A stretch of 64,000 nt of DNA from Halolamina sp. CBA1230 (GTDB lineage: Archaea > Halobacteriota > Halobacteria > Halobacteriales > Haloferacaceae), in NCBI RefSeq assembly GCF_002025255.2, contig NZ_CP054587.1:1674001-1738000 (forward strand), given 5' to 3'. Every line of letters begins with the position of its first letter. Positions within the stretch are counted from its first letter, which is position 1. A program made the position numbers and the translations under genes. The notes beneath the pieces were generated by a model. It saw only the letters and a list, made by a program, of their open reading frames with translations, searched no databases and was not told the origin of the DNA. Positions 16,853 to 60,256 of the stretch are shown piece by piece.

Positions 16853-18979
16853 GTGCGATTCTCCGACCCCGGGCGACTGCTGCTCGTGCTCGTCGCCCTG
16901 CTGTGTCTGACACAGGGCGCCGCCGGGATCGGTATCAATCCCGAGGCGGATGGGGCCGGTGTCGGAACCGCAAGCGTCGGCGCCGACACCGCACTCCAGA
17001 CCACGCCGAACAACACGACCGTCCAGCAGGAGAACCCGGACGACGTCGGCGAATCAGGGGATACTGCAGCCCTGCAGTCGTATCTCGTCCAATCACTTGC
17101 AGATCGGTTGGGGGAGAGCTCGATCCGGATCAGTGCGGGCCAGTACGAGCAAGGCCGAGCACTCCTCGGCGACGAGTACGACAGTACGCTGGAGAAGTAC
17201 GTCGACGTCGAAGGCGAGACCGACAGCGCCGCAGCGTTCGACCAGGCTGCCGAGAGCCAACGCGAATTAGGAACAACTGCACAGGAGTACAACGAGACCT
17301 ACCGGGAGTACCAACAGGCGCGGGAAAACGGGAACGAGGCGCGTGCACGTGAGTTAGCCCGTGAGTTGGGCCGCCTTGCCGGGGACGCGAACGAATCCGC
17401 GCGCCGCCTCACAGCGTCGTACACGCGGATCGAGAACACGACGGGGGCCAATCTATCGGCAGCGCAGCAGCGGGCGCTGAACGTCTCCGAAGAGATCTCC
17501 CAACAGCAGCAGACAGTCATCACCGAAACGTTCGTCGCGACACGTCTCTCGGTCGGGACGGATGCCGACAGGGTGTCGTTCGCGGCCCCCGCGACCGTCA
17601 CCGGCCAACTCACGCTGGCAAACGGGTCGGCAGTCCGGAACGAGACGGTGGCGATCCGAATCGGCGATCGCGTCGAGTCAGTGCGGACGGGTCAGAACGG
17701 GACGTTCACGGTCGAGTACCGGCCCGTCTCAGTCCAGAACGGGACGGACACACTGCCGGTCGCCTATCAGCCCGCTCCGGAGTCGCCGTATCTCGGCTCG
17801 AACGCGTCAGTGGACGTCACCGTCACCCAGACGACTGCCACCCTCACGGTGGACAGTCGTTCGGCGACCGCGAGCTTCGGTGACGAGGTGGCAGTCTCGG
17901 GGCAAGCCGCCGTCGACGGGACGCCAGTGCCCGGCGCCCGCGTTCGGGTCACCGTCGACGGTGTCACCCTCGGAACCGTCACGACGGGGAGCAACGGTAG
18001 CTACGCGGTCGTGAGCGACCTTCCCGCGTCCGTTGCGAGCGGGGAGACCGACGTGGAAGCGGTGATCGTGCCGTCGGACAGGGCCGTTCGCTCGGCCGTG
18101 GCGTCGACGCCCCTCCGTGTCGAGTCGACCGAGACCGCGCTTTCGGTGAACGCATCACGAGCGACTGATGGGCGCGTCCGGCTCACGGGGCAGTTGACAA
18201 CGACCGAAGGGGCTCCCGTTGCAGGGGAGACGATCGAACTCCGGATCGAGGGGACGACTGTCGCCACAGTCGAGACCGACTCAGCCGGCGCGTTCGAGCA
18301 GCTGGTGACGCCGCAGGACGGGCTCGACGGAGTGGTGTCGGTAGAGGCGATCTACGACGCCCCATCGAGCAACCTTGCGGGGGCGACCGCAGAGACGAGT
18401 GTGGATCTGGATGCACCGCCTGCTGATCGTGAGAGTGCGCCCGGCGAGGAGGGAACCGAATCCGGCGCAGACAGCGACGGTCGTGATGATGGCCCATTAT
18501 CTCGTGGAGCCGGTCCACTGTCGCTGGAACTCCTTGCTGGCGGTGGCGCCCTGGTGCTCTCGGTGCTCGTGATCGCCTGGGTCATTCGGCGCGATGGGGA
18601 GCGCGGCCCCACCAATCAGCCACAGTCGCCAGGAACATCGACGACGCCTACCTCGGACAGCACCGATAACGGGGGCACAATGGTGGATCACGCCGCTGCA
18701 CTGCGTGAGGACGGGGAGTCCGACGCCGCGATCCGGGCGCTCTACAACGCCGTGCGACGATCGCTCAGTGTCGGTGATGAAACACAGACCCACTGGGAGT
18801 TCTACACCACCGCGAGTGAGCGGCTGCAGCCAGACACGACAGAGACGCTCGAACGACTCACCCAAGCGTACGAGCGAGTGGTCTACAGTCCGGACGAACT
18901 GGACAAGGAACAGGCTGATGCCCTGCTGGACGACACCGCAGCATTGCTCGACGAGGGCGACGGCGAGTCGGCGTCGTAG
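16853..18979 (+). CDS. Large surface protein with carboxy-terminal DUF4129 domain
   Basis: A 708-residue protein starting at GTG 16853; a TATA-like ACATATATG lies about 30 bases upstream. It has a signal peptide (1-24) and a helical, coiled-coil extracellular part (about 70-230). Three repeated beta-sandwich (carboxypeptidase-regulatory-like) domains follow, each with a G-x-F-x-x-x or G-S-Y turn (235-520), then a membrane segment (about 558-580). The cytoplasmic end is DUF4129-like (DHAAALREDGESDAAIRALY, then YERVVYSPDEL). DUF4129 proteins are typical members of MoxR/DUF58 clusters, linking this gene to those at 1.8-9 kb. Confidence 0.8.
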   Translation: MRFSDPGRLLLVLVALLCLTQGAAGIGINPEADGAGVGTASVGADTALQTTPNNTTVQQENPDDVGESGDTAALQSYLVQSLADRLGESSIRISAGQYEQGRALLGDEYDSTLEKYVDVEGETDSAAAFDQAAESQRELGTTAQEYNETYREYQQARENGNEARARELARELGRLAGDANESARRLTASYTRIENTTGANLSAAQQRALNVSEEISQQQQTVITETFVATRLSVGTDADRVSFAAPATVTGQLTLANGSAVRNETVAIRIGDRVESVRTGQNGTFTVEYRPVSVQNGTDTLPVAYQPAPESPYLGSNASVDVTVTQTTATLTVDSRSATASFGDEVAVSGQAAVDGTPVPGARVRVTVDGVTLGTVTTGSNGSYAVVSDLPASVASGETDVEAVIVPSDRAVRSAVASTPLRVESTETALSVNASRATDGRVRLTGQLTTTEGAPVAGETIELRIEGTTVATVETDSAGAFEQLVTPQDGLDGVVSVEAIYDAPSSNLAGATAETSVDLDAPPADRESAPGEEGTESGADSDGRDDGPLSRGAGPLSLELLAGGGALVLSVLVIAWVIRRDGERGPTNQPQSPGTSTTPTSDSTDNGGTMVDHAAALREDGESDAAIRALYNAVRRSLSVGDETQTHWEFYTTASERLQPDTTETLERLTQAYERVVYSPDELDKEQADALLDDTAALLDEGDGESAS

Positions 18980-19038
18980 GCGTCCGGGCCTGGCGGTGGA
19001 CCGACTGGTTTTTCCGCACTGCGCAACCTCGGGCAGAT

Positions 19039-20109
19039 ATGGCTGGCCGGTCACGCTGGTTGCAACTCCTCCCTGCACCAGTCCGGCGACTGCCTGCCGA
19101 TCTGGCCGCAGTCATCGCGCTGGTCGGCGTCACTGCAGCAGTCGTCTTCCTCCCGGTCGTTTCCGAAACGCCTCTTCGCGTGGTGTTCGGCCTCCCGTTC
19201 GTGCTGTTCGTTCCTGGGTACGCGTTCATCGCGGCGCTGTTCCCGGAGGCCGGAACGTTCGAGACGAGCTACGACGCGGCCCATGACGAAGTCGCGGCGC
19301 CGAACGATCGCTCGGGGATCGACGGCATCGAGCGCGTCGCGCTGTCGTTCGGCCTCTCGATCGCGGTGGTGCCGCTGATCGGGCTGGTGCTGAACTTCAC
19401 GCCATGGGGGATCCGACTGGTGCCGATCATGGTCGCGGTGAGTCTGTTCACGCTGGCGTCGACGGCCGTCGCCGCGCGACGTCGCTGGGCGCTCGACCCC
19501 GAGGATCGGCTCACGGTGCCGTGGCGCGAGTGGCTCGGCGAAGCGCGCGCGGAGCTGTTCGAGCCCGAGTCGCGGGCGGATGCGGCGCTGAACGTGCTGT
19601 TGGTAGCGAGCGTCCTGCTGGCTGTTGGGAGTGTTGGCTACGCCGTCGCGGTGCCCCAGCAGGGGGAGGCGTTCACGGAGTTCTACCTGCTGACCGAAAA
19701 CGAGGACGGCGAGTTGGTGGCCGACGACTACCCCACAGAGTTCACGCAGGGTGAAAGCGAGTCGCTGGTCGTCGGGATCGGGAACCACGAGCATCAGTCG
19801 GAGACGTATTCGGTGGTGGTCGCGTTACAGGACGTGCGGATCGAGAACACGTCGGGGAACACCGTGAACGACTCCGACGGCGGTGGGAACATCTCGATTG
19901 CCGTCGAGGAAGAGGAGGAGCTTCGACGTTTCCAGACGCAGGTCGCGCACAACGGGACGTGGCACCTCCAGCACAACGTAACGCCGACGATGACGGGCGA
20001 GCAGCTGCGGTTGACGTATCTGCTGTACAAGGGTGAGGCGCCCGAAGATCCGACGGTGGAGAACGCCTATCGAGAGCTGCATCTGTGGGTAAACGTCAGT
20101 GACCCATGA
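19039..20109 (+). CDS. DUF1616 membrane protein
   Basis: A 356-residue protein with four amino-terminal membrane segments (about 20-42, 47-68, 95-120, 125-145), a short cytoplasmic loop and a fifth segment (about 190-212). A soluble extracytoplasmic domain with N-x-S/T sequons follows (about 215-356). The pattern RVVFGLPFVLFVPGYAFIAALFP is diagnostic for DUF1616. Such proteins often sit beside surface glycan genes in haloarchaea. The gene's end abuts IS debris that begins just after its stop codon. Confidence 0.83.
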   Translation: MAGRSRWLQLLPAPVRRLPADLAAVIALVGVTAAVVFLPVVSETPLRVVFGLPFVLFVPGYAFIAALFPEAGTFETSYDAAHDEVAAPNDRSGIDGIERVALSFGLSIAVVPLIGLVLNFTPWGIRLVPIMVAVSLFTLASTAVAARRRWALDPEDRLTVPWREWLGEARAELFEPESRADAALNVLLVASVLLAVGSVGYAVAVPQQGEAFTEFYLLTENEDGELVADDYPTEFTQGESESLVVGIGNHEHQSETYSVVVALQDVRIENTSGNTVNDSDGGGNISIAVEEEEELRRFQTQVAHNGTWHLQHNVTPTMTGEQLRLTYLLYKGEAPEDPTVENAYRELHLWVNVSDP

Positions 20110-44170: not shown

Positions 44171-44524
44171 TCAAACAGACTGGAGGCCCAAAGAGTACCC
44201 AAGCGCATCGTCGATCTCGTCCATCCGGGCCTCGGGAATCGACCCGATGTTCTCCGTGATCCGCTGCGCGATAGAGACAGTCCGAATCTGACTACAGAGC
44301 GCAACAGAGTCCGCAGAGAGCGGGCTTTCCTCGGCCCGAACCAGGACTTCGAACGGGTACTGGCGATCGTCGAAGGACGTGGTGAACGGGACGACGATGG
44401 TCGTCGGGGCGTTCGCGTTTCCAATATCGTTCTGGACGACGAGACATGGGCGGGTCCCGCGTTGTTCCGAGCCGCGAGTCGGATTCAGTTCGACGATGAC
44501 GATATCGCCACGGTGGACGTCCAT
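44171..44524 (-). CDS. MazF/PemK-family toxin (intact pair)
   Basis: A 117-residue toxin whose first 25 residues are identical to the one at 3620-3967, with scattered changes later (for example PCLVVQND for LCLVIQND). It begins immediately after the antitoxin stop codon (TAG then ATG). The core strands of the MazF fold (GDIVIVEL, TTIVVPFT, QIRTVS) are all present. Likely a sequence-specific mRNA endonuclease. Confidence 0.87.
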   Translation of the reverse strand: MDVHRGDIVIVELNPTRGSEQRGTRPCLVVQNDIGNANAPTTIVVPFTTSFDDRQYPFEVLVRAEESPLSADSVALCSQIRTVSIAQRITENIGSIPEARMDEIDDALGYSLGLQSV

Positions 44525-44797
44525 CTACGACTCCCACTCGGGCACGTCACCGAGGGCTGCATCGGCCTCCGCCGAGACACCCTCGAGTTCGGAAGCGAGA
44601 TCGGCCATCTGTTCGGAACGGGCGCGGTATCCCTCGGCGAGGTCGTCTTCTGTGACCGCCTTTTCGACGACGATCCGTCCCTCCTCGTCCTCGTGGACGC
44701 GTACTCTATCGCCACCGTGAATCCCGAATCGTTCCCGAAGCTGCTTCGGGAGTGTGACCTGCCCACGCTCACCGACGACTCGCGTGTCTTCCACCAT
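44525..44797 (-). CDS. AbrB/MazE-type antitoxin
   Basis: A 90-residue antitoxin. A SpoVT/AbrB swapped-hairpin fold (TRVVGERGQVTLPKQLRERFG, DRVRVHEDEEGRIVVEKAV) is followed by an acidic helical tail (RSEQMADLASELEGVSAEAD) for toxin binding. It is the intact counterpart of the frameshifted gene at 3348-3619, and because the toxins are so alike it may neutralise both. Confidence 0.87.
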   Translation of the reverse strand: MVEDTRVVGERGQVTLPKQLRERFGIHGGDRVRVHEDEEGRIVVEKAVTEDDLAEGYRARSEQMADLASELEGVSAEADAALGDVPEWES

Positions 44798-47241: not shown

Positions 47242-47285
47242 TTGACATCCTCCCACCCCTGAAGGGGTGGGCTTCCGCTCGCTAC
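47242..47285 (-). mobile_element. Solo IS200/IS605 right end
   Basis: Minus-strand sequence ...GGGGTGGGAGGATGTCAA ends at 47242, with the hairpin CCCACCCC-tgaa-GGGGTGGG at 47252-47271 and GGCTTCCGC beyond. This matches the right ends of the elements at 34853 and 42035. No transposase gene is attached. It lies between convergent genes. Confidence 0.65.
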
Positions 47286-47319: not shown

Positions 47320-49434
47320 CTACCCGTTTCCAGAGTCAGTCCGACCGGTCTCACTACGTTCTTCGTCGGCGCCAGGCAGCGACGACCGTTCTTGCTCAGT
47401 CGGGTCAAAGTCAATCACTTGCTTCTCTTTGGGCATCGCCTCAACCTGAATCCCACGCCATTCGCCATCCACCCCAACAAGCGCCTCCGCAAACCCCGCA
47501 TCCTCATTCCCCGGCACCGCATCCTGCACATACCGCATCTGGGCGTAGTTGAGCCCGAACTCCTGGGCCCAGTCCTCGTCCATCCCGTCCAGCCGGTGGA
47601 ACTGCTTCACCGCACACTGGTCGAGAATCGCCTCACTCTCGGCGTGCTCGAAGAACTCGTCGACGGTCTGGGTCACCAGCCGGATCGACAGGTCATGATG
47701 GCGGTGATGCCGAAACACCGTCTCCAGGAACGCCAGACTCGCGGCGTCCTGCATGAGGTAGCGGGCTTCGTCGATGTAGAACACCACCTCCTTCTCGGAC
47801 ACCTTCGCCCGTTCGTACACCAGCGAGATCAGCAACTGCATCGTGAGCGCCGTCCCACTATCCACACTCCCCTCCTGCTGGGCGAGATCGAGATAGATCA
47901 CTTTCTCGTCCCGGATGTCGAACTCGGACTCGGTGCCCAGATTCGCGTGCCGACCGCCCTCTTCGAACGGCCGCAGCTGGTCAAGCAACCACGTGGCGTC
48001 TTCCTCGATCTTCGCCGCCTCCTCGTCGGCCCGCACGACGAACGCCTCCGGCTCCTCGACCATCTCCTCGAACACGTCCAGCATGTCCCGGATCGTCGGA
48101 CTCTGATTCCCGTGCGTCGAGATGTCGTCAGTAATCCCCTTGCGCTTGTACGCGCGCTTGAGACCGAGCTCCAGCGTCGTCCGCCGATCCCCGAGCGAGA
48201 TCCCCCGCAGCGCGAAGAAGTTGGTGAGGAAACTCATCGCGTCATCGAGCTTCTCGTTGAACGGGCTCGCATCCTCGCCCATCGCCCGCTGGACGTGCTC
48301 GGGGGTCTCCCTGATCTCCAGCGGGTTCAACCCCAACGTCCCGCCGACCGTGATCCGTTTCGCATCGAGGGCTTCGGCGACACCGGCCCAGTCGTTCAGC
48401 GGTTCGAGAATGACGCCGATGCGGTCCCGTGCCTGCTCCATCGACCGGATGAAGTTCTGCTTCGAACTGAACGACTTCCCCGAGCCGGGATCGCCGACCG
48501 TGAACATCGCGTAGCCGTTGTCCCGCGCGAACGGGTCGATCACCACGGGACTCCGCGTGTCCTTGTGCATCCCGAACTCGACGCCACCCTCCTCAAGGAT
48601 CGTCGCATTGTGCGGCGACGCCAGCAACGCGCCGACGGCGCCACCAAGCGCGATCGACTCGCGGCCGAATTCGTTCGCGCCGATCGGCGCCGCCGACTGC
48701 AGCGCCACGTCCTGCCGACAGATCGCCGTCTTCGGCGTCAGGTTCGCCGGCTCGTCCCGCAGCGTACTCTTCACCTGCTGCACGTCGTCCTGCAGCGTCT
48801 CCCGATCGTCGGCGCGCACCGTCACGAACACACCCTGGTCGAACACGCGCGCCCCGTTCTCGACGGCCGTGTACGTCGCAGCCGCCTCGTCCGCTCGCTC
48901 CTGCAGGTACGAACTCCGCACGCTCTGCTCCAGATCGGCGTCCACCTGCAGGTCGTCGGCGATCTCCTGCAGTTCGGTTCGCGCCCGGTCCTGGTTCTTC
49001 GGCGTGATGTGAGCCGTCAGATCGAACTGGACGTCGGTCAACTCGAACAGGTCGCTGAGGTAGCCGTCATTCGGGTAGTCCGGGTAGTCGGCGATGTACA
49101 GCGTCGACGTCCACTGCTCGCCGACACGGGCGGCGCGAGTCTCCCACTCGATGGCGGCGGGCGCCGTGACCGTTTTGTGGGACTCGGCGATGTCGTCGAA
49201 GAGTTGCCCTTCGGCCTGCCCATCGGCGAGCGTCTCGTCGTCGAGGACGTCCGCGAAGTCGACTGTCGCCTCGTCGTCGGCAGCGTACCGATCCCGGAGT
49301 AGTGTGCCACCGACAACGACGGCGCCGATCAGCACCAGAGAGACGGCGGCGCCCTCGACGCTCGTCGGTGACGCAAGCCACTCCCGGAGCTGTCTCACGA
49401 CACCCCCACTCGACTGGACGAGCACGCTATGCAT
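47320..49434 (-). CDS. VirB4/HerA-like conjugation ATPase
   Basis: A 704-residue ATPase, last gene of the seven-gene operon. One membrane segment is near residue 30 (VSLVLIGAVVVGG). A VirB4/TraC-type body follows with Walker A VGDPGSGKSFSS (about 313), Walker B EVVFYIDEARYLM (about 551), and the downstream RLVTQTVDEFF sensor. VirB4-type ATPases power substrate and subunit movement in conjugative and type IV secretion systems. Start 49434 (MHSVLVQ) overlaps the preceding stop by 8 bases; the GTG five codons upstream is less likely. Confidence 0.85.
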   Translation of the reverse strand: MHSVLVQSSGGVVRQLREWLASPTSVEGAAVSLVLIGAVVVGGTLLRDRYAADDEATVDFADVLDDETLADGQAEGQLFDDIAESHKTVTAPAAIEWETRAARVGEQWTSTLYIADYPDYPNDGYLSDLFELTDVQFDLTAHITPKNQDRARTELQEIADDLQVDADLEQSVRSSYLQERADEAAATYTAVENGARVFDQGVFVTVRADDRETLQDDVQQVKSTLRDEPANLTPKTAICRQDVALQSAAPIGANEFGRESIALGGAVGALLASPHNATILEEGGVEFGMHKDTRSPVVIDPFARDNGYAMFTVGDPGSGKSFSSKQNFIRSMEQARDRIGVILEPLNDWAGVAEALDAKRITVGGTLGLNPLEIRETPEHVQRAMGEDASPFNEKLDDAMSFLTNFFALRGISLGDRRTTLELGLKRAYKRKGITDDISTHGNQSPTIRDMLDVFEEMVEEPEAFVVRADEEAAKIEEDATWLLDQLRPFEEGGRHANLGTESEFDIRDEKVIYLDLAQQEGSVDSGTALTMQLLISLVYERAKVSEKEVVFYIDEARYLMQDAASLAFLETVFRHHRHHDLSIRLVTQTVDEFFEHAESEAILDQCAVKQFHRLDGMDEDWAQEFGLNYAQMRYVQDAVPGNEDAGFAEALVGVDGEWRGIQVEAMPKEKQVIDFDPTEQERSSLPGADEERSETGRTDSGNG

Positions 49435-50548
49435 CCTGTCCCTCCTCACGGCGCGAGTGGCCGACGACCGGCTGGTCGCGAACGACGGCCTCGGGATCGC
49501 CGTAGTCGTCCTCGCGACCGTTCCAGAACGCCATGTTCAGGACGAACAGCTCGACCGTGCTGAGGCGGCGGGCCGACCAGCCCGACGCCTGTTGGATGAA
49601 CTCCGTCCGCACGTCGGTGATCCGACTATCCAGTTCGTCGAACATCCGCGCCCGGCGCTCGACATCGCTCAGGTCTGCACGCCGCGTCACGAACGGCGTG
49701 AACAGGACACCCACCACGGGCAGCTGCGTCAGCTTCTCGGCCGGCGTCGCCGCCTCGCGGTAGCGGTCGTACACCTCCAGCGGCGAGACTTCGACACCAA
49801 TGTAGTACTGCACCTGCTGGATCCCTCGCTCGCGCATTTCTTTCGGCCGCGTGTCGCGGTACTCCTCGAGGAGTTCCCGGAAGATCGGGTTCGACTCGAC
49901 GTCCTCGTCGTCGAGGCGGTCCTTGATCGTCGCGGTCAGCTGCTCCACCGGAAACGCTCGGGTCGTCGCGTGGAACGTCAGCTTCGCGTCGAGTTCCTTG
50001 TTCGCGAACGCCGCACCGGCGTCCTGCAGCTGGGCCCAGTCCTCGGCCATGGCGAAGTCCATGTTCCCGGGATCGACCTCGATGAACGCCTCCATCGTGC
50101 CGTCGGCGCGCTGGATGGCGCCGGCGCCGGGCCACGCCCGCTCGATGTTGGTGAGGTCCTGTGTTCGCTCATCAGGGGTGAACGGCGTGTAGTTCGCGAG
50201 GCCCCCCTGATTGCGGTCGGTCTCGTCCGTAGCACTATCGGCGTCGTTGGGGGCGCTGAACGTGACCGCGGGGCGCTTGAGGTACTGGGACACGTCGGTC
50301 GTCCAGGTCCACGCGGTCAGGTGCTCGGGCGTGACGTAGACGAGCGCCGTGCCGAACCCTGCGCCGGCGGCGATCAAGGGGAGCGCGAGTGATTCGACGC
50401 CGATGAGACTGGCGAGGAACAGGCCGGCGATCGGGAACGCGATCAGGACGCCGACGTCCCCCTCCTCGATGTTGAGGTAGGGGATGCGACTCGCCTCGCC
50501 GAACTGGTCCATGATGCGCCGTGGGGCTGCGTCGTTGTCTGAACTCAT
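49427..50548 (-). CDS. Conjugation-type membrane protein, VirB3/VirB4-amino-domain-like
   Basis: A 373-residue protein with two adjacent membrane segments (about 33-53 and 55-75) followed by a soluble alpha/beta domain (about 110-330). The soluble part resembles the amino-terminal domain of VirB4-like proteins (AFIEVDPGNMDFAM, LDAKLTFHATTRAFPVEQL, VQYYIGVEVSPLEVYDRY). It may be a PrgI/VirB3-type platform component. It overlaps the ATPase gene by 8 bases and follows the polytopic protein by 3 bases. Confidence 0.7.
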   Translation of the reverse strand: MSSDNDAAPRRIMDQFGEASRIPYLNIEEGDVGVLIAFPIAGLFLASLIGVESLALPLIAAGAGFGTALVYVTPEHLTAWTWTTDVSQYLKRPAVTFSAPNDADSATDETDRNQGGLANYTPFTPDERTQDLTNIERAWPGAGAIQRADGTMEAFIEVDPGNMDFAMAEDWAQLQDAGAAFANKELDAKLTFHATTRAFPVEQLTATIKDRLDDEDVESNPIFRELLEEYRDTRPKEMRERGIQQVQYYIGVEVSPLEVYDRYREAATPAEKLTQLPVVGVLFTPFVTRRADLSDVERRARMFDELDSRITDVRTEFIQQASGWSARRLSTVELFVLNMAFWNGREDDYGDPEAVVRDQPVVGHSRREEGQDA

Positions 50549-50551
50549 GGA

Positions 50552-51652
50552 TTAGTGGATTCCGCGGTCAAAGTCCATCCCGTAATCGTTCGATTCGGTG
50601 TCGCTTGGATCGTTCTCGGTCCGCCGGTAGGACGGCGCTCCGTCCCCATCGCTGTCCTCGCTTCGAGCAGCGGCTTTCTGGGCCACCGCTTGGCCGGCCG
50701 CGGCTTTCGGCCCCCATCGGGCGGCGGTGGTCGCGACGCTCGCGTTCCCGGCGTACGCACCGACGGCGACGCCGCCAACGAGGGCCGCGCCACGGGTGAC
50801 GCCGCTGAGGGCTTTCGCGGTCAGTGGAGTGGCGTACTTGAACGTCTGCCACGTGGCGTAGAGGGCGACGACGGGGAGGGAGACGGCAACGAGATACTGC
50901 AGGAACGGGGTGTCGGGCGAGAGGCCGCCCGTCGAGTAGACGATGTCGTACCCCTTGAACACGATCGCCGCTGGGAGCGGGAGGACAGCAAGTGGGACGA
51001 AGCGTTTCGCGAAGCCGTGCCCGATCCGCGAGAGGACCGGGACGTTGCCGTAGGCGACGGCGATCGCGATCGGCATCCCGTAGAGGTAGACGTAGAGGAG
51101 GATCTCCCGGATGTAGAGGAGTGCCTGCAACGCCCACATGGAGATGCCGCCAGCGAGGGCGAAGAGGAGTGAGAGGGCGGGGTTGGTGATGGATTGCCTC
51201 AAAAACTTGATCATAACGTCTGTGAGAGGCCTAATTCCCGGTAGGAGTGCAATCGTGAACCCGTCGACAAGATAGAGCGCGAGCGTTCCAACCCAGTACC
51301 ACACGACAATCAGGAATGCACCGGTCCATGCGTTCTTCTTCGTTTTTCGTGCCTCGTACGTACTCCCGATATTGAACACCCGTATTGCGTGTCGGCCTTG
51401 GACGCTCATCACGAGAAGGAGCAGCGCGATTAGGACGATCTCACCGCCGACGAGCGTGTCTTGGAGCTCGACCCAGGGTTGGTTCGTTGGGTCTCCAAAC
51501 ACGAACGGCCCGTTCGTTTCCGGCGTCGGGGTTCCGAACATCGCCTCCGAGAGGGTCCGATACCCTGACCGAAGGCCATCCATGAGCTGGCTCACAAACC
51601 ACCCGATACTTGCCTTGATCCCCTCGAGGACAACGTCGATTAGGTCGACCAT
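50552..51652 (-). CDS. Polytopic VirB6/TrbL-like membrane protein
   Basis: A 366-residue protein with about seven membrane segments (70-90, 110-130, 160-182, 185-208, 215-238, 250-270, 280-300). A carboxy-terminal Ala/Gly-rich then acidic tail is probably cytoplasmic. The size, topology and place next to the VirB4-like gene match VirB6/TrbL channel components. It starts 2 bases after the stop of the lipoprotein gene. No motif proves the family, so the call rests on topology and context. Confidence 0.68.
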   Translation of the reverse strand: MVDLIDVVLEGIKASIGWFVSQLMDGLRSGYRTLSEAMFGTPTPETNGPFVFGDPTNQPWVELQDTLVGGEIVLIALLLLVMSVQGRHAIRVFNIGSTYEARKTKKNAWTGAFLIVVWYWVGTLALYLVDGFTIALLPGIRPLTDVMIKFLRQSITNPALSLLFALAGGISMWALQALLYIREILLYVYLYGMPIAIAVAYGNVPVLSRIGHGFAKRFVPLAVLPLPAAIVFKGYDIVYSTGGLSPDTPFLQYLVAVSLPVVALYATWQTFKYATPLTAKALSGVTRGAALVGGVAVGAYAGNASVATTAARWGPKAAAGQAVAQKAAARSEDSDGDGAPSYRRTENDPSDTESNDYGMDFDRGIH

Positions 51653-51654
51653 CG

Positions 51655-52500
51655 CTATGCCTCCATAATCGTGACCTCACAATCGGTCATGTCCGATGAA
51701 CTCTCGTAACGGACATCGAATGTTTGTTTGACTGAGTCGGGGTTGACGAGTGTTTCTAGAACCACGGTGAACTGTCCACTATTCCCATCAGTGGAACAAC
51801 CCATCCCATCAGGTGCCTTTGACCCAAACGGGAATGACGAACTATAGAGATCAACTCTTCGTCCAGCCGGAATGAGTGCTCGATCGGTTCTTTGTAGCCC
51901 GTTACTTCGTGGGTTCTCAGTAGGTGCTGGAACGTCACCGGAGAACACAAGCTCGGTGACTGTCTCTGGCCCAGTCCCTGTGTTCTCGACAGTCACGAAC
52001 GCCTCCCCGTTGATCAACCGATTCGTCTCCGATTCCCCGTACACCTCCTCCCACGGCTTGTCCGGATGGTTCCGATACAGCCCCACCTCCTGAATCTCGA
52101 GCTCGGGACGGATCTCCAGCGACGTTGCCCCGACCGTCTCCTCGCCATCGACGCCGACGACGTCGTACTCGCCCGGAGGATACGCGCCGCGGAACGCGAA
52201 CGACACCTGCTCGGCGCCGGCGGCGACGTCGCGGGTCCCCCACAGTTCGCCGTTCGGTGTGATGAGGTTCACCTGGGCAACCGCTGTCTCGGCGGCGAGT
52301 TCGACGACCAGCGTCGTGCCGTCGACGCCGACAGCTTGGAACGGCCCGTCACTCGTCCCGTCGGTGTCAGTCTCGGATCCCGTTCCAGGGTCGGACTGTT
52401 GCCCGTCCTCGGCGAGGCAGCCACCGACGCCGACGACGGCACTGACGGCGAGCGTTCGGAGGGCGGTACGTCGATCAATCGGGGTAGGTGTGGTGGTCAT
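51655..52500 (-). CDS. Tat lipoprotein of the conjugation-type operon
   Basis: A 281-residue lipoprotein. The leader DRRTALRTLAVSAVVGVGGC has a twin-arginine motif and the lipobox VGGC with Cys28. After an acidic linker come two Ig-like beta domains (about 55-135 and 140-280), the second with two Cys pairs possible (Cys near 245 and 275). Start 52500 overlaps the preceding stop by 4 bases (ATGA). It would sit on the outer membrane face as part of the secretion or attachment apparatus. Confidence 0.78.
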   Translation of the reverse strand: MTTTPTPIDRRTALRTLAVSAVVGVGGCLAEDGQQSDPGTGSETDTDGTSDGPFQAVGVDGTTLVVELAAETAVAQVNLITPNGELWGTRDVAAGAEQVSFAFRGAYPPGEYDVVGVDGEETVGATSLEIRPELEIQEVGLYRNHPDKPWEEVYGESETNRLINGEAFVTVENTGTGPETVTELVFSGDVPAPTENPRSNGLQRTDRALIPAGRRVDLYSSSFPFGSKAPDGMGCSTDGNSGQFTVVLETLVNPDSVKQTFDVRYESSSDMTDCEVTIMEA

Positions 52501-54227
52501 GGTTGATCGGAGAATCTCGTTGCGGGGCTGAGCATCGCCAGGAGGCGGCGGCCCGCGTAGAGCGCGACGACGAACGGGAGCAACTGCCAGCCGAGCGCGA
52601 CGAGCAGTGCGAACCAGCCGGCCACCGTGGTCAGTGGGTGCCAGCGAACGGTCGCCGTGTCGTCGACGTAGGCCGAGCGCTGCTCCACCCACGACCCGGG
52701 GTGGTACCGCGCCGTGTAGATCCCGGGCTGATCGAGTGTCACGATCGCGACGCCTGAGGCGTTCGTCTCGACGCGCTCGCCGGCGATCGCGATGTAGCCG
52801 GTACGCGCCGGGCCAACCCCGGGTCGCGGCCCCGCATCGTCGTCGAGCACGATCGGGGCGCCGGAGTACGCACTCCGCAGCCGCAGTCGGACTGTCGTCG
52901 CCGATCGCGTCTGGTTGCCGACAGTCGCCGTCAGATTGCTTCGGAACAGGGGGCGCTCGAACCCGCTGTCGGGTTCCGTGATCGAGGCGTTCACGCCCCG
53001 GACGATCCCGGCGACGCGGGTAGTGTCGGGGGCGACGTCACCGGCGCGAACGGCGACGCCGTGGCTCGCCGTGTAGGAGCCGTTCACGACGTCGACGTTG
53101 ATGTTCTCCCCTAACCGGGGCGCTCGGGTCGCGTTCGTCACCTGCCACGTGTCGAGGATCTCCGGCCCGTCGCGGACCGGTTCGGCCCGCGGCCCGATCC
53201 GCGAGGGGTAGGCGTGGACCGAGACGGGGATCGCGTCCGAGGTGATCGGTTCCTGTGCAGTGCCGTTTCGCCGAACGAGTCGGTCCCACCCGGTGTCGCG
53301 AGCAGTGTAGAACCGCCAGACACCACGAACCCGTTGTGAGCCGTCGTCGGTCAGGGTGTACCCCTGCCACGGCTGGCTCTGGAAGACGGCGACGCCAGTG
53401 TCGCCGCCTGGGTAGTCCGCGTAGTAGACCGTGGCCTCGGGATCGTACACGTCGACGGTGAGCGAGTCCGCCACAGTGAGTGTCTCCGTGCGCACCGTGG
53501 TGTTGACGCTCGTCGAGTTGGGACCCCGCCTGACGGCGCGGAGCCGAACCTGGATGTCGGCCTCAAGGGTCAGCGTCATCTCGCCGTGGGCGTCGAGTGC
53601 GTACGCCAGTGCTGGCGTGTGCGTCCCGTCACGGGTGACGAGCGGCTCGCCATCACGCAACAGGCGAACTGACTCGATCTCGTGCTGTTGGAGTGTCCAC
53701 TCGGTCGTCCGGTTCCCGCTCGGGCTCCTGCCCGGCACCCGCACGCGGTAGTCGACGAACCCGCGGAGCGTCCCGTTCGGCGCCACGTAGTGGGTGGTCT
53801 CGTTCGGGGCGGCGTGGACGCGCGTCGACGGCTGGACGGCGAAGACCGTGGCGTGGGCGTCGTCGATGAAGACACCACTCTCGAACGTGGCGTTCCGCGG
53901 CGCGACCGACGTGCCCGCCCCGCCAGCCTCGAGATCGGCGAAGTCGTTCCGCGTCCATGTCGACGCCGTCGCCGGTGGCCGAGTGAACGTGATGTCGGTC
54001 CCGTTCGCGAGCTGCTGCATCGCGGTCCGCGACTCGCCGTAGCGACGGCGATACTCGGTCTGGGACATGTAGTCATCGTCGTCACGTGACCACAGCGTCG
54101 CGGACTCGTTCTCGGTGAGGCCGTTGGCCTCCGTCCCCGGCGCTGGGGGGTTCGCGGTCCCGACAGCCGTGACTCCGGCGGCAAGGCAGAGCACGGCGGT
54201 GACCACAACGGGGACGCGTGCCGGCAT
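52497..54227 (-). CDS. Large surface protein of the conjugation-type operon
   Basis: A 576-residue protein. The signal peptide (MPARVPVVVTAVLCLAAGV) is followed by about 500 extracellular residues rich in beta strands and N-x-S/T sequons, then two carboxy-terminal membrane segments (about 525-545 and 548-565). Start 54227 was chosen for the signal peptide. No named family is recognised. The fixed position in a coupled operon suggests an adhesin or an outer channel part that contacts a mating partner. Confidence 0.72.
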   Translation of the reverse strand: MPARVPVVVTAVLCLAAGVTAVGTANPPAPGTEANGLTENESATLWSRDDDDYMSQTEYRRRYGESRTAMQQLANGTDITFTRPPATASTWTRNDFADLEAGGAGTSVAPRNATFESGVFIDDAHATVFAVQPSTRVHAAPNETTHYVAPNGTLRGFVDYRVRVPGRSPSGNRTTEWTLQQHEIESVRLLRDGEPLVTRDGTHTPALAYALDAHGEMTLTLEADIQVRLRAVRRGPNSTSVNTTVRTETLTVADSLTVDVYDPEATVYYADYPGGDTGVAVFQSQPWQGYTLTDDGSQRVRGVWRFYTARDTGWDRLVRRNGTAQEPITSDAIPVSVHAYPSRIGPRAEPVRDGPEILDTWQVTNATRAPRLGENINVDVVNGSYTASHGVAVRAGDVAPDTTRVAGIVRGVNASITEPDSGFERPLFRSNLTATVGNQTRSATTVRLRLRSAYSGAPIVLDDDAGPRPGVGPARTGYIAIAGERVETNASGVAIVTLDQPGIYTARYHPGSWVEQRSAYVDDTATVRWHPLTTVAGWFALLVALGWQLLPFVVALYAGRRLLAMLSPATRFSDQP

Positions 54228-54241
54228 GGAGCGGTCGGTGG

Positions 54242-54658
54242 CTACCAGGGGACGAGATTGACGCACTCAGCCAGCGGGAGGCGCATCATCGACCCGGCGA
54301 CGGTGTATAGCGGCCCGAGGACGACGAGGACGACCGCGGACTTCATCGCCGAGCGCTTGTGGCGTTTGAAGCGCTCCTTCTGCTCGCGGTCGATAGTGAA
54401 CATCTCGAGCAGGGAGTCGGCCTGCCACACCACGACGAGGCCGATGATCCCCAGCGCCGTCGTCAACTGGAAGAACCCCTCGATCATGCTGGGGAGGTTG
54501 TCCGCGCTACAGACGGCGTTCTCCTGGGCAGCGACGGGGTCGACGACGACGACGCTGAGCAGGACGACGATGAGGGCCGCCTGCTGCAGGCGTCGGTGGA
54601 TCGGCGACGACTCATCGTTTGCCGGGACAGCGTGATCGGGAGCAGTGTGCTGGCTCAT
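54242..54658 (-). CDS. Small membrane protein, VirB2/TrbC pilin-like
   Basis: A 138-residue protein. A hydrophobic stretch ending VVDPVAAQE (about 30-46) looks like a cleavable signal; two further membrane segments (about 65-80 and 108-128) enclose a short charged loop (REQKERFKRHKRS). This signal-plus-two-helix layout is that of VirB2/TrbC-type pilin subunits, though a Cys near each end (52 and 132) is unusual. ATG 54658 is used; a GTG at 54667 would overlap the upstream gene by 4 bases. Confidence 0.6.
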   Translation of the reverse strand: MSQHTAPDHAVPANDESSPIHRRLQQAALIVVLLSVVVVDPVAAQENAVCSADNLPSMIEGFFQLTTALGIIGLVVVWQADSLLEMFTIDREQKERFKRHKRSAMKSAVVLVVLGPLYTVAGSMMRLPLAECVNLVPW

Positions 54659-54663
54659 CGTGA

Positions 54664-54942
54664 TCACTCCGTCGTGGTGTCGGCCGTCGGTGACTGGCGC
54701 TCCTGGTCGGCGACGAGTGCTTCCAGATCCGCGAACCGGTTGGTTTCCGTCGCGATCTCGTCCAGCGTGTACCCTTGCTCCTGGGCCCGCTCCAGGAGGT
54801 CGCGGAGTTCGTCACTGTCGACACCGCGAACGGCCATCTCCTCGCGGAGCGCACGCCGATAGAGGGCCGAGGCGTTGATGTGGTCGTGCCACTGGAGGTA
54901 CAGTTCATCGATCGGCTCGATGGTGACTGAGCGGGTGATCAT
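54664..54942 (-). CDS. Small acidic protein, first gene of the conjugation-type operon
   Basis: A 92-residue soluble helical protein starting MITRSVTIEPIDELYLQWHD. The amino end resembles a ribbon-helix-helix-like strand and helix (ASALYRRALREEMAV), the rest is a charged helix. It could be the operon's own regulator. The downstream start lies 5 bases after its stop. No family name is known to me. Confidence 0.62.
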   Translation of the reverse strand: MITRSVTIEPIDELYLQWHDHINASALYRRALREEMAVRGVDSDELRDLLERAQEQGYTLDEIATETNRFADLEALVADQERQSPTADTTTE

Positions 54943-55189
54943 GCGTGTGGCGGGGGGGTATGTGTTGGTTGGGTATCGGTACGCGGTAACAATATACATA
55001 GTTAGAACTTATTCCTTTTGTCAGAACAGAAAACCAATACATAGATAGCGAGAATCGATAGCTGAGAAAATCATACGGTATGCATGGGCCACGACGCCGA
55101 TTCCGTGGTAGCTGTCCGGGTGCTGCTGTCCGACCGAGACGACACGGACCCGCTGGAGCATGGCGCAGTTGGGGAGCACCGGAGTGTTT

Positions 55190-55213
55190 GTATACATTGA
55201 GTATAATGTATAC
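55190..55213. promoter_or_regulatory. Palindromic promoter of the UPF0175/DUF3368 pair
   Basis: GTATACATT-gagtat-AATGTATAC, a perfect 9-base inverted repeat that ends 3 bases before the antitoxin ATG and contains TATA-like sequence. The position points to autoregulation by the antitoxin. A degenerate copy sits before the gene stump at 46001. Confidence 0.7.
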
Positions 55214-55216
55214 ACT

Positions 55217-55507
55217 ATGGGAACGATCTCGGCGCGGGTCCCCGATGAACTGGAAGCGGAGCTCGAGGCATATCTCGAGGACGAGAACCTGGATCGGAGT
55301 ACGGCCGTTCGAAAGCTCCTCTCCGAGGGACTTGAGGAGTGGCGTCGCGAGCAGGCACTTGAGCAACTCGCGGCGGGGTCGATCACGTTCAGCAAGGCGG
55401 CTGAGCTGGCCGGGATGTCCGTCTGGGACTTCGCCCAGCTCGCAAAGGAACGCGACATCAGCTGGGTCGACGACGACCACGTCGACGCGGATCTCGAGGC
55501 ACTGTGA
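55217..55507 (+). CDS. UPF0175-family antitoxin
   Basis: A 96-residue protein. MGTISARVPDELEAELEAYLEDENLDRSTAVRKLL is a ribbon-helix-helix DNA-binding fold; the second half (AAGSITFSKAAELAGMSVWDFAQLAKERDI) is the UPF0175 HTH-like domain. It is followed with no gap by the DUF3368 PIN-like toxin, the standard partner. It likely represses its own promoter at 55190-55213. Confidence 0.88.
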   Translation: MGTISARVPDELEAELEAYLEDENLDRSTAVRKLLSEGLEEWRREQALEQLAAGSITFSKAAELAGMSVWDFAQLAKERDISWVDDDHVDADLEAL

Positions 55508-56020
55508 ATGTGGGTGTTCGACGCGACGCCGCTCATCTATCTCGCGAAAGTTGACCGACTCGCACTCGTCCACCACCTCGACGCGTCGTGTGTGATCCCC
55601 GAGCGCGTCTACGATGAAGTGGTCGCGACCGGCCTCGAAGAGGGGTATCCAGACGCTCGCCGAATCGAACGGGCCGTCGACGCTGACCGGTTCGACGTCG
55701 TCGCGGTTGACGCTTCGCCACTCATGGCTCGAATTCGGGAAAATCCCAGCCTTAGTGACGCTGACGCTGCTGTCCTGGCCTACGCCGACACGCATGACGG
55801 GGTGGCCGTGATGGACGAGACGTACGGGCGGGACGTTGCTGCCGCTGAAGGCGTTACGACCAGGGGCACAGCATTCCTGATTCTGAAACTCACAAAGCAG
55901 GGGGTGATTAGCGGTGACGACGCACGAACGATCATCGACGGGATGATCGACAACGGATGGTACTGCGCGCCCGACGTCTACACGAAGATCATTCAAAAGC
56001 TCGACTCGTTCGAAACCTGA
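55508..56020 (+). CDS. DUF3368 PIN-like toxin
   Basis: A 170-residue PIN-superfamily protein: MWVFDATPLIYLAKVDRL gives the first Asp, YDEVVATG the Glu (about 36), LSDADAAVLAYA the middle acidic cluster (about 82) and VAVMDETYGRDVA (about 100) the last. The tail LKLTKQGVISGDDA is typical of DUF3368. It starts at the base after the antitoxin stop codon. Presumed ribonuclease. Confidence 0.87.
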   Translation: MWVFDATPLIYLAKVDRLALVHHLDASCVIPERVYDEVVATGLEEGYPDARRIERAVDADRFDVVAVDASPLMARIRENPSLSDADAAVLAYADTHDGVAVMDETYGRDVAAAEGVTTRGTAFLILKLTKQGVISGDDARTIIDGMIDNGWYCAPDVYTKIIQKLDSFET

Positions 56021-56168: not shown

Positions 56169-57098
56169 TTAGGTTCCCTCCAGCGCGCCGATCAGCGCTT
56201 CGGCCGTCCGACTAATCCGCCCGAGCCGGTCGCGAACGACTTCGGGATCGTCCGACTCCCACGCAGCGAGGTAGAACGCCGACCCGCTCGTGTCGAGTCC
56301 GCAGTAGCGCCCGACGACGTACGCGACCGCCTCAGCCTCGACTTCCCGCTTGGATCGTTCGGTGTCGTCATCGACGTCGCCGTGGAGCAGAGCATGCGCG
56401 TACTCGTGGATCAGTGTCCGCGCGAGGTCGGCCTCGTTCGCCCGATCACGAACCTCGACGCGCGGCTGGCCGTCGATGAGGCTCAGTTGCTGACAGATGC
56501 CCTTCGCCTCGCCGTGGGGCCAGTCGTCGTCGGGAACGATCCGCACCGTCACGCCGAGTTCATCAGCGGCGGCTGTCAGCTGGTCGACGAGGTCGCCGGC
56601 GTCCCCGGTCGCTGCTGTGTCGAGGTCGGGAAGTGGTTCACCCTCGGTCTGGGAGACGTCGAACACCGGCGCGGGCTGGAACCCGACCAGGCCCTCGGAC
56701 CATTCTTCGGGGGGCGTTTCGTCGTACTCACAGCCACTGTCCTCGTGGTAGCCCGGCGAGTTCTCGCACTCCGGGCACTGCCTGGCGATGATCGGCGCCC
56801 AGATCCAGATGGCCGACTCACCCTCCTTGACGTGGCGGTCGAACTCCTCCTGCCACGTCCGGTAGCCGGCGACCTTCGTCGCCTCGGGACACTGCCGCTT
56901 GATGAGGAGCGTGTTGCGGGAGGAGTAGTCGTGGAACCGACTCTGGACGTCGAGCCACTCTTGGAACTCCGCGCTGGCCTGCGCGTCGTCAACGCCGGCG
57001 ACGAGGTCGTCGATCCACTGTTCGATCGTGCTGTGCATTTCGTCGTGCCGTGTGTCGGCCTCGTCGAAGGAGACCGACGCGTCGCTGGTCGTGGACAT
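56169..57098 (-). CDS. ArdC-like ssDNA-binding protein fused to a zinc metallopeptidase
   Basis: A 309-residue protein. The amino half (about 20-105) matches ArdC/DUF1738 ssDNA-binding domains (RFHDYSSRNTLLI, ATKVAGYRTWQEEF, GESAIWIWAP). A small Cys insertion follows (RQCPEC...GCEY, about 107-125). The carboxy half has the metallopeptidase motif LIHEYAHALLH (about 228) and a second acidic site (EVEAEAVAYVV). ArdC proteins protect incoming plasmid DNA from restriction in some conjugative elements. Start 57098 (MSTTSD) is used. Confidence 0.83.
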   Translation of the reverse strand: MSTTSDASVSFDEADTRHDEMHSTIEQWIDDLVAGVDDAQASAEFQEWLDVQSRFHDYSSRNTLLIKRQCPEATKVAGYRTWQEEFDRHVKEGESAIWIWAPIIARQCPECENSPGYHEDSGCEYDETPPEEWSEGLVGFQPAPVFDVSQTEGEPLPDLDTAATGDAGDLVDQLTAAADELGVTVRIVPDDDWPHGEAKGICQQLSLIDGQPRVEVRDRANEADLARTLIHEYAHALLHGDVDDDTERSKREVEAEAVAYVVGRYCGLDTSGSAFYLAAWESDDPEVVRDRLGRISRTAEALIGALEGT

Positions 57099-57288
57099 CG
57101 TGTTCACCGAATCACGTTCACGGCGTGCCCGTCGATGCAGGACGCGCCGCACCCCTCAGGGGCGACGAAAAACTGCCGTCGCGCTCCCGCGTCCGGCCCG
57201 CCTGTCAGTGGCGTTGGCCAGCCAGCATTCCCCGCACTACGGACTGCCGGCTACGCCTGTTCGCCGCTTCGGCCGAACTTTCATCCTG

Positions 57289-57370
57289 TTCGGCTATTCA
57301 GCCGAACTTTATTCCGGCCGCAACCTTGATCATGGTTCGCTATAAACACCGAACTCAGTTGCAGTTCGGT
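57289..57370. promoter_or_regulatory. SatD promoter with two palindromic operators
   Basis: TTCGGCT-attc-AGCCGAA at 57289-57306, and ACCGAACT-cagttgc-AGTTCGGT at 57348-57370, flank a TATAAA box at 57341-57346. The shared half-site CCGAA also occurs just upstream (GGCCGAACTTT, 57271). The repeats suggest strong autoregulation by the SatD protein, which ends in an HTH. Confidence 0.7.
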
Positions 57371-57385
57371 AATAACGGCGAACAC

Positions 57386-58051
57386 ATGACCGAGAACTGG
57401 CCCGACGCCGAGTTCGTGGCGGTCATCGGCGACATCCGCGGGTCCCGAGAGCTGTCGGATCGCAGCGAGGCCCAGCAGGAGTTCAAGCAGGTTGTCACCA
57501 CCCTCAACGAAGACATCCCGGACAGCGTGATCGCCTCGCAGTTCACCGTGACGACGGGTGACGAGTTCCAAGTGCTCCTGACCGATGCGGCCGCTGCCGT
57601 CGACGCGGTGGTCGCGGCCAGCGATCAGTTCCACCCGGCACGACTCCGGTTCGGTATCGGTCGGGGTGAGTTGGCTACCCAACTCAACCCGGCCCAGGCG
57701 ATCGGGATGGACGGCCCGTGCTTTCACCGTGCTCGAGAAGCCATCGACGCGGCCGAAGCAGCCGGGGCGTGGGTCCGCGTCGCCGGCTGGGGGAGCCCCA
57801 TCGACGGCCACGTCAACGCCATGTTCGATCTAGTGCAGTGCGTTCGGGAGGACTGGACGGAGCGGCAGGCCCAGTTCGCACGCGCCCTCAAAGCGGAGGG
57901 AACCCAGAACGGCGTCGCGGACCGCTACGACGTCGCGAAGTCCACCGTCAGCGAATCGCTCAGTGCCGGGCACGTCCAGGCGGTACGGGCTGCCGAGGCC
58001 TCGCTCGGCGAGCTGTTAGCGGCCAGCCGGAGCAACGGAGGGTCCCGATGA
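57386..58051 (+). CDS. SatD-family protein
   Basis: A 221-residue protein. The start AEFVAVIGDIRGSRELSDR and the FTVTTGDEFQVLL segment (about 53) are the SatD signature, a fold related to nucleotide-cyclase/GGDEF-type domains. The carboxy end holds an HTH (NGVADRYDVAKSTVSESLSAGHV, about 175-200). It overlaps the DUF3307 gene by 4 bases; the pair is conserved in bacteria and archaea but its biochemical role is unclear. Start 57386 lies 45 bases after the TATAAA box. Confidence 0.85.
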   Translation: MTENWPDAEFVAVIGDIRGSRELSDRSEAQQEFKQVVTTLNEDIPDSVIASQFTVTTGDEFQVLLTDAAAAVDAVVAASDQFHPARLRFGIGRGELATQLNPAQAIGMDGPCFHRAREAIDAAEAAGAWVRVAGWGSPIDGHVNAMFDLVQCVREDWTERQAQFARALKAEGTQNGVADRYDVAKSTVSESLSAGHVQAVRAAEASLGELLAASRSNGGSR

Positions 58052-59501: not shown

Positions 59502-59834
59502 TCACCGCCCGCAGTCGTTCACGGCCTGCATCGCCATCGCGATCTCGAGGATCTTCGGGCGGATCGCGACGGCGACGCGATGCTTGCACGGGCTGTCGTC
59601 CCGCTCGTCGGCGGGACACGTACAGCTAACCGGGAGGCCGTCGACGACCGAGACACGGTACTCGTGCTTGGCCGGATCGAGGTGGCTCTCGTTGCGAACC
59701 CGGACGTCGCCGGCCTGGAGCGAGAACGCGAAGGCTTCGTACTGCGCCCGTTTGCGCACACGATTCGACGGGTCGAGTTCAGCGAATGGTGGGTGCTCCA
59801 TCCTGCGTACTAGCGGGGTGCTGGTTTCGACCAT
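59502..59834 (-). CDS. SWIM zinc-finger protein
   Basis: A 110-residue protein from ATG 59834 (or 99 from ATG 59801). After PSNRVRKRAQYEAFAFSL comes the SWIM pattern: VSCTC...CKHRVAVAI, a Cys-x-Cys and Cys-x-His zinc site used for DNA or protein binding. Similar short SWIM proteins are widespread on haloarchaeal plasmids and viruses. It follows the zinc-ribbon gene 59861 closely. Confidence 0.83.
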   Translation of the reverse strand: MVETSTPLVRRMEHPPFAELDPSNRVRKRAQYEAFAFSLQAGDVRVRNESHLDPAKHEYRVSVVDGLPVSCTCPADERDDSPCKHRVAVAIRPKILEIAMAMQAVNDCGR

Positions 59835-59860
59835 CTTGGCGAGGCTGCGAAGCGGGACCG

Positions 59861-60256
59861 CTACGCCAGGTGGGCAACCGCCTCCGGCTCGTCGACGTCG
59901 TCGAACTCGCCACGCTCGACCGGCTCCCAGTCCTCTCCCGGCGCTGGACTCCACCAATCCACCTCGTAGGCGCCGGGCGCCCCGAGGATCTTCGCTCGCG
60001 CTGCGCCGTCAGGGAGGTCGCGACGGAGTTTCTCGTCGACGTGGAGGTTCCACGTCGTGTCGGTGGTGAAGCGCGCGATCGCGGCGTCTTCGTGGCCGCG
60101 TGTCTCCAGTGGCTCCTGCAGTTCGACCTGTGTGTTGCAGTGCTTGCAGAACACCCCCTCGAAGGGGATGTGGCTGAACACCTCGTGTCCGCAGACCGGA
60201 CACCAGAGGAACTCGAACAATGCCTCACTATGACGGTCAAGTACTTCCACGCTCAT
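59861..60256 (-). CDS. Zinc-ribbon protein of plasmid type
   Basis: A 131-residue protein. The amino part EFLWCPVCGHEVFSHIPFEG...CKHCNTQVEL forms a four-Cys zinc ribbon (about 19-43). The carboxy part is acidic with a conserved-looking ARFTTDTTWNLHVDEKLRRDLP and WWSPAPGEDWEP. I associate it with a haloarchaeal plasmid family (DUF7567, from memory). It is the first gene of the group running to 59076. Confidence 0.72.
   Translation of the reverse strand: MSVEVLDRHSEALFEFLWCPVCGHEVFSHIPFEGVFCKHCNTQVELQEPLETRGHEDAAIARFTTDTTWNLHVDEKLRRDLPDGAARAKILGAPGAYEVDWWSPAPGEDWEPVERGEFDDVDEPEAVAHLA

Follow-up and report, generated by a model that had tools for sequence, protein, structure and literature searches.

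The analysed window of Halolamina sp. CBA1230 (the whole stretch of 64 kb, C1:1674001-1738000, in a 3.47 Mb genome of four contigs) contains a seven-gene operon, identified by homology as encoding the transport core of a type IV secretion system of the conjugation type. The operon was interpreted as the mating-pair-formation half of a large haloarchaeal conjugative element integrated in the chromosome, whose other half, the type IV coupling protein (T4CP), lies outside the window. A probability of about 68% is given to this reading, and the element probably measures at least 35 kb. The interpretation is built on the observed gene content, the homology of VirB4, VirB6 and the coupling ATPase, the genome context, purifying selection and the linkage of a lipoprotein gene with virB6. 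The nearest relatives of the window were Halolamina pelagica and H. rubra, as judged by VirB4 and contig identity.

The transport operon and its plasmid relatives

The operon occupies 47320-54942 on the minus strand with every open reading frame (ORF) open, and its genes are separated by gaps of at most 14 bases or else overlap. The tight coupling of seven same-strand genes described in the initial annotation was confirmed at these bounds. The genes, named g0 to g6, are as follows.

54664..54942, minus strand: g0, small acidic protein of 92 amino acids (aa), first gene of the operon, no family match
54242..54658, minus strand: g1, VirB2-like pilin candidate of 138 aa, from topology and position
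52497..54227, minus strand: g2, large surface protein of 576 aa, from alignment
51655..52500, minus strand: g3, predicted Tat-exported lipoprotein of 281 aa, MTTTPTPIDRRTALRTLAVSAVVGVGGC, from the RR motif and Tat lipobox in its sequence
50552..51652, minus strand: g4, TrbL/VirB6 polytopic channel protein of 366 aa, as identified by Pfam PF19590
49427..50548, minus strand: g5, VirB3/VirB4-N-terminal-like protein of 373 aa, from natural fusions with VirB4
47320..49449, minus strand: g6, VirB4 ATPase of 709 aa, as identified by NCBIfam and PDB matches, likely ATG start at 49433

The g4 protein matched Pfam PF19590 (TrbL_3) with E=1.6e-131 and 439 bits, the cut-off being 23, and is identified by this homology as a VirB6/TrbL channel protein. 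The g6 protein is likewise identified as a VirB4 ATPase. It matched the NCBIfam VirB4-like CD1110 family (E=1.2e-39), the NCBIfam VirB4-like matches being below their equivalog cut-offs, as well as the solved VirB4 structure PDB 4ag5 (E=1.9e-9), and it carries Walker A (GDPGSGKS) and Walker B (YIDEAR) motifs. No match of g6 to the HerA family was found and its best matches were the VirB4/TraC families; the HerA repair clade, considered in the initial annotation as a contrary outcome, did not appear, and VirB4 families and 4ag5 were matched instead. The VirB4, VirB6 and archaeal conjugation/type IV secretion identity proposed there was borne out by the profile and PDB matches.

The g5 protein has two N-terminal hydrophobic helices, and a profile search returned no family match of its own and nothing useful among solved structures. 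It was read as a VirB3/VirB4-N-like unit because natural fusions with VirB4 are as expected; such single-ORF fusions occur in three loci (L073, 1071 aa; L088, 1041 aa; L153, 1086 aa). The 22-sequence alignment of g1 revealed a signal peptide ending in ..PVAAQ, a conserved Cys pair, two hydrophobic helices and a basic loop KRHKRSAMK. No profile match of g1 to solved pilins or within Pfam was obtained, and since no solved pilin matched, its assignment as a candidate VirB2-type pilin rests on topology and position. Alignment of g2 indicated a signal peptide, a beta-rich ectodomain and one C-terminal transmembrane helix; no PDB or Pfam match was found for it, and its AlphaFold model was weak (predicted local distance difference test score, pLDDT, of 52, below use for fold searches). 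None of g0 to g3 reached the cut-off of any Pfam, NCBIfam or PHROG family, in accordance with the earlier remark that the surface parts match no known family; yet they are conserved in the haloarchaeal type IV secretion system (T4SS) operon.

The distribution of the operon was analysed with gene calls in the fetched regions from a GC-frame caller made for this analysis, and contig size was used as the proxy for chromosome versus plasmid. PF19590 was present in 145 of 294 genomes sampled from the class, covering 57 of 78 genera, and in 0 of 14 control genomes, Haloferax volcanii among them. The gene set is not a product of chance, because identical genes in identical order recur in more than 100 haloarchaeal loci. 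A tblastn search gave 78 plasmid records with at least 60% identity to the window VirB4, and the order of the genes on haloarchaeal plasmids, which the initial annotation had suggested checking, matches. There the operons run straight into a 1274-aa coupling-type ATPase (g7), followed by primase-like and primase-associated genes (g8-g9). The 'VirB4 family type IV secretion system' loci of pNRC200 and of a 101-kb Halorubrum hochsteinianum plasmid are like the window in genes and order, with VirB4 about 84-86% identical, whereas the T4CP, primase and primase-associated genes found directly downstream on haloarchaeal plasmids are missing there from the window copy.

Contig C3 (253 kb) of the same genome carries two more copies of the operon, one with all the plasmid-type downstream genes and the other with a different type of coupling ATPase. 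These modules (G000:C3:33884 and 143744; L006 and L008) share a lipoprotein type, 93% identical, at ~110 kb from each other, which suggests a plasmid fusion. Further VirB4 copies were observed in two genomes. In contig C1 of G006, a second VirB4 with a short N-terminus (L073:15641-17563, 91% identical, with a match to residues 82-708) and a third copy, a fragment of VirB4 (18895-19173), stand 3' of the T4SS operon, while G005 has a lone VirB4 ATPase domain without VirB6 beside sugar genes (L075:10156-11952).

Selection on the operon was calculated as the ratio of nonsynonymous to synonymous divergence (dN/dS). In Halolamina pairs the ratio was 0.06-0.09 for VirB4, equal to that of plasmid copies, and 0.07-0.14 for VirB6; that for g1-g2 was 0.16-0.46 compared to 0.09-0.19 in plasmids. 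The open ORFs, the retained core genes and the low VirB4 and VirB6 ratios argue for a current or recent function. A decaying, non-working remnant of an integrated conjugative plasmid, having lost its 3' part by a deletion linked to insertion sequences (IS), would account for the short C-terminal tail of the window VirB4 (30 residues against a plasmid-copy median of 61), the absence of g7-g9 downstream and an inverted-repeat motif immediately 3'. Many IS200/IS605-type genes also lie around it, and G006 has its extra partial VirB4 copies. Such decay is nevertheless quite unlikely, as all seven ORFs are intact, four other Halolamina genomes and Haloferax retain the arrangement, and the VirB4 and VirB6 dN/dS is low, though the g1-g2 ratios are above plasmid values. 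The motif, which we take to resemble an IS200/IS605-type end, is the following.

47243..47274, minus strand: perfect GC-rich inverted repeat AAGCCCACCCCTTCAGGGGTGGGAGGATGTCA, directly 3' of VirB4, the sole match in the window with 0 expected

The detached coupling ATPase

The position of the T4CP divided 116 distinct VirB4 loci into 74 with an adjacent T4CP and 42 without, the window and its Halolamina relatives being among the 42. Contigs longer than 1 Mb held 25 of the 42 non-adjacent loci as compared to 4 of the 74 adjacent ones (Fisher P=1.7e-10, related loci not being independent). The arrangement changes at least 10 times on the VirB4 tree, in which the window belongs to a seven-row clade (support 99) with an adjacent T4CP in no member. 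Of the 74 loci with the T4CP adjacent, 45 have g0, versus 6 of the 42 others. The non-adjacent loci retain VirB4 (42), VirB6 (41), g5 (41) and g2 (40). In Halolamina and Haloferax the acidic VirB4 C-terminal tail is shorter without an adjacent T4CP, with a median of 27 versus 61 residues as measured from a motif found in only 60 loci.

Loss of the T4CP from the non-adjacent loci was dropped as an explanation once diverged T4CPs were found nearby; the T4CP is detached and not truly lost. A homologue was present in 27 of the 29 genomes searched, nearly all of which were picked for carrying non-adjacent operons. Overall, the non-adjacent loci have a diverged T4CP on the same chromosome, 3-65 kb off and usually upstream and divergent. 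In 15 rebuilt regions it stands 7-35 kb from VirB6 (upstream and divergent in 12), and for 22 loci on large contigs the median operon-T4CP distance is 29 kb. If placement on chromosomes of 2-4 Mb were random, a much larger distance would be expected.

The T4CP of this genome is located at C1:1752526-1756116 on the plus strand, 24 kb beyond the first gene of the operon and 14.5 kb right of the window end. It matched PF10412 (TrwB_AAD_bind) just at the cut-off (20.5 bits) and is homologous to plasmid g7; proximity links it to the operon, with which it would belong. The initial annotation had seen no VirD4-type ATPase in the window, which holds, and its suggestion of dependence on genes elsewhere is answered by this coupling ATPase. 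Its alternative, a system that serves secretion, uptake or vesicles and not conjugation, loses weight, because a coupling ATPase was found 24 kb from the operon.

The region between the two halves contains an RPA-like OB-fold protein in 13 of the 15 rebuilt elements (here C1:1739484-1740383), the ArdC family in 10, the SWIM family in 9, an ATPase_2/DUF234-type ATPase in 7 and TFB in 6. The ArdC and SWIM genes of the window are given below.

56169..57152, minus strand: ArdC-type antirestriction protein (ArdcN and peptidase M78), PF08401 and PF06114 above cut-off
59502..59957, minus strand: SWIM zinc-finger protein, conserved gene of the element, PF04434 with E=7e-8

Genes for single-stranded-DNA-binding and ArdC proteins are typical of conjugative leading regions. 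The window was thus read as containing one end of an integrated conjugative element of large size, because the T4CP lies just outside it with a single-stranded-DNA-binding protein and ArdC between.

Several results weigh against this interpretation. The relaxases PF03432 and PF08751, the two families searched among the MOB families, were absent from this genome and from 15-16 others with full plasmid systems, which is what one would expect of archaea; the earlier statement that no relaxase is seen holds genome-wide for these two. Archaeal conjugative plasmids without known relaxases have been reported (PMC12857230). In this genome no PF00589 integrase was found in the interval from VirB4 to the T4CP, the nearest being 34 kb beyond the T4CP, and no element ends or target-site duplications were found, the ends not having been searched systematically. 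Ordinary-looking genes, phytoene-dehydrogenase-like and ABC transporter genes, separate the halves here, so the element may no longer move as a unit. The distances of T4CP and VirB4 also agree weakly (Mantel r=0.25, P=0.03).

The identity values gave insight into how the halves are combined. Chromosomal T4CPs share about 35-58% identity among distant members versus 24-33% with plasmid T4CPs, and the VirB4 proteins paired with them extend from a distant lineage (36-40%) to near-plasmid sequences (85%). In this genome the VirB4 is plasmid-like (85%) and the T4CP is of the chromosomal type, with no more than about 30% identity to its plasmid counterpart. From 14 elements, we infer that whole transport operons may have been exchanged between elements.

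A domesticated machine for DNA uptake or protein/DNA secretion, independent of a T4CP and with VirB4 as its sole motor, comparable to Ced in Sulfolobales or ComB in Helicobacter, would agree with a core that purifying selection maintains in many lineages where no T4CP is adjacent, with the repeated changes of T4CP adjacency on the VirB4 tree and with the shorter VirB4 C-tail where the T4CP is not adjacent. Genome G222 also has the core operon with no T4CP homologue found, a weak absence because this genome is 92% complete and in ~20 contigs. However, nearly all genomes of this kind have a T4CP homologue on the chromosome that carries the operon, for the most part nearby and in divergent orientation, and the explanation is considered unlikely.

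Other features were observed around the two types of locus. In plasmid T4CPs (L004:18231-22055; L024:12213-16505) residues 1 to ~945 are common and the C-terminal part is one of two unrelated types, one seen in loci with primase genes g8-g9 and a Pox_D5-like one usually in loci without them. A PD-(D/E)XK nuclease at this C-terminus was rejected, since the conservation is motif-like only, the two types do not align and neither a Pfam nuclease nor PDB support was obtained; its AlphaFold model was weak (pLDDT 45). In ~20 plasmid loci (e.g. L004:9092-10329) the operon is immediately preceded by the exonuclease VII genes xseA-xseB, which have this position in 0 non-adjacent loci. Within the window, an opposite-strand UPF0175-like/PIN toxin-antitoxin-like pair at 55160-56020 is upstream of the operon, as it also is in Halolamina locus L041. 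At 57050-58051 there is a member of the SatD family (PF16264, E=6e-29) with an ORF for a hydrophobic protein after it, and a MazF/PemK-like toxin with an AbrB-like antitoxin was identified by eye from the sequence at 44171-44797. No tRNA was present in the 64-kb window.

Co-variation of the lipoprotein and VirB6

Comparison of operons with VirB4 less than 8% different revealed seven types of g3, with identity of 56% between and 85% within types. VirB6 tracks the g3 type (lowest segment of VirB6, 61% versus 88%), whereas g1, g5 and g6 do not. The g3-g4 correlation was 0.62 with VirB4 distance partialled out, compared to -0.03 to 0.29 for g3 with other genes; the g2-g5 pair also reaches 0.60, so that the g3-g4 value is strong and not unique, and adjacency linkage may explain part of it. 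Between plasmids with a VirB4 synonymous divergence (dS) of 0.3-0.6, that of g3 and g4 has reached saturation, which shows that recombination replaced the two genes together. A loop-specific contact in VirB6 was tried and rejected, as the partial Mantel test gave the transmembrane segment 161-203 as strong a signal as loop 237-259.

Entry exclusion is the obvious model for this pair, because virB6 has the exclusion gene as its direct neighbour in bacterial plasmids of the groups IncP, IncN and IncW (PMC11493245). As with TrbK of RP4 and Eex of pKM101 (PMC11493245, PMC8923210), a lipoprotein gene stands directly upstream of virB6/trbL and the pair varies as a unit. The likeness seen is one of position and co-variation, and g3 differs in being 281 aa long and Tat-exported. 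The g3 protein is accordingly named a candidate entry-exclusion or VirB6-partner protein. Avoidance of the same exclusion type within one cell was not seen, as 5 of 14 close pairs within one genome share a type, much like the 34% among close pairs in general, and this speaks against entry exclusion. The wider proposal is that g3 is an archaeal entry-exclusion/self-recognition factor targeting VirB6, the first outside bacteria, along with a chromosomal split-element family in which one T4CP family has interchangeable transport operons; it is put forward tentatively and stays on the doubtful side.

Proposed working and related systems

The movement of DNA, its direction and the roles of g0 to g3 are proposed as follows. 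VirB4 would power the assembly of the pilus and channel, VirB6 with VirB3 would make the membrane pore, and the pilin and surface protein would contact a second cell. The coupling ATPase would load the pore with DNA, probably as single strands, with no classical relaxase taking part, and the lipoprotein g3 may act as the recognition partner of VirB6.

The known systems share parts of this arrangement. The plasmids pT33-3 and pNOB8 have VirB4 and a VirD4-like ATPase and no recognised relaxase, as here; compared by description, these are their only T4SS proteins (PMC12857230), whereas here VirB6, a pilin candidate, a surface protein and a lipoprotein are also present. Ced/Ted DNA import (PMC9905601) follows the same VirB2-, VirB4- and VirB6-like logic in an archaeon, but the present system has another VirB6 family name, a T4CP homologue nearby and a mobile-element setting, and no Ced family of NCBIfam matched g0 to g6. 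A vesicle or virus-like dissemination system of the pR1SE type, compared by description, would fit in so far as such plasmids carry a VirB4/HerA-like ATPase beside surface proteins; the plasmid-vesicle proteins are however reported to be unlike conjugation proteins (PMC10818511), whereas VirB6 is present here, which makes this explanation highly improbable. The Fsx1 (fusexin) integrated elements of haloarchaea (PMC9259645) have VirB4 and TraG/TraD/VirD4 genes and are integrated, as is the proposed conjugative element. No HAP2-type fusexin match was found in 20 genomes, the positive control of the search being likewise unmatched.

Within the open-access literature, two findings are new: a T4CP that is detached and combined with mix-and-match transport operons, and the linked swapping of g3 and VirB6. 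Haloarchaea swap genes across genera at high rates, and to our knowledge the machinery of this exchange is largely unknown. The locus supplies a complete list of parts that is widespread and open to genetic tests, with candidate pilin, VirB3/4, VirB6, surface protein, lipoprotein and T4CP, placed on plasmids and in split chromosomal elements, and it offers the lipoprotein and VirB6 as a specific candidate recognition pair for the testing of mating exclusion.

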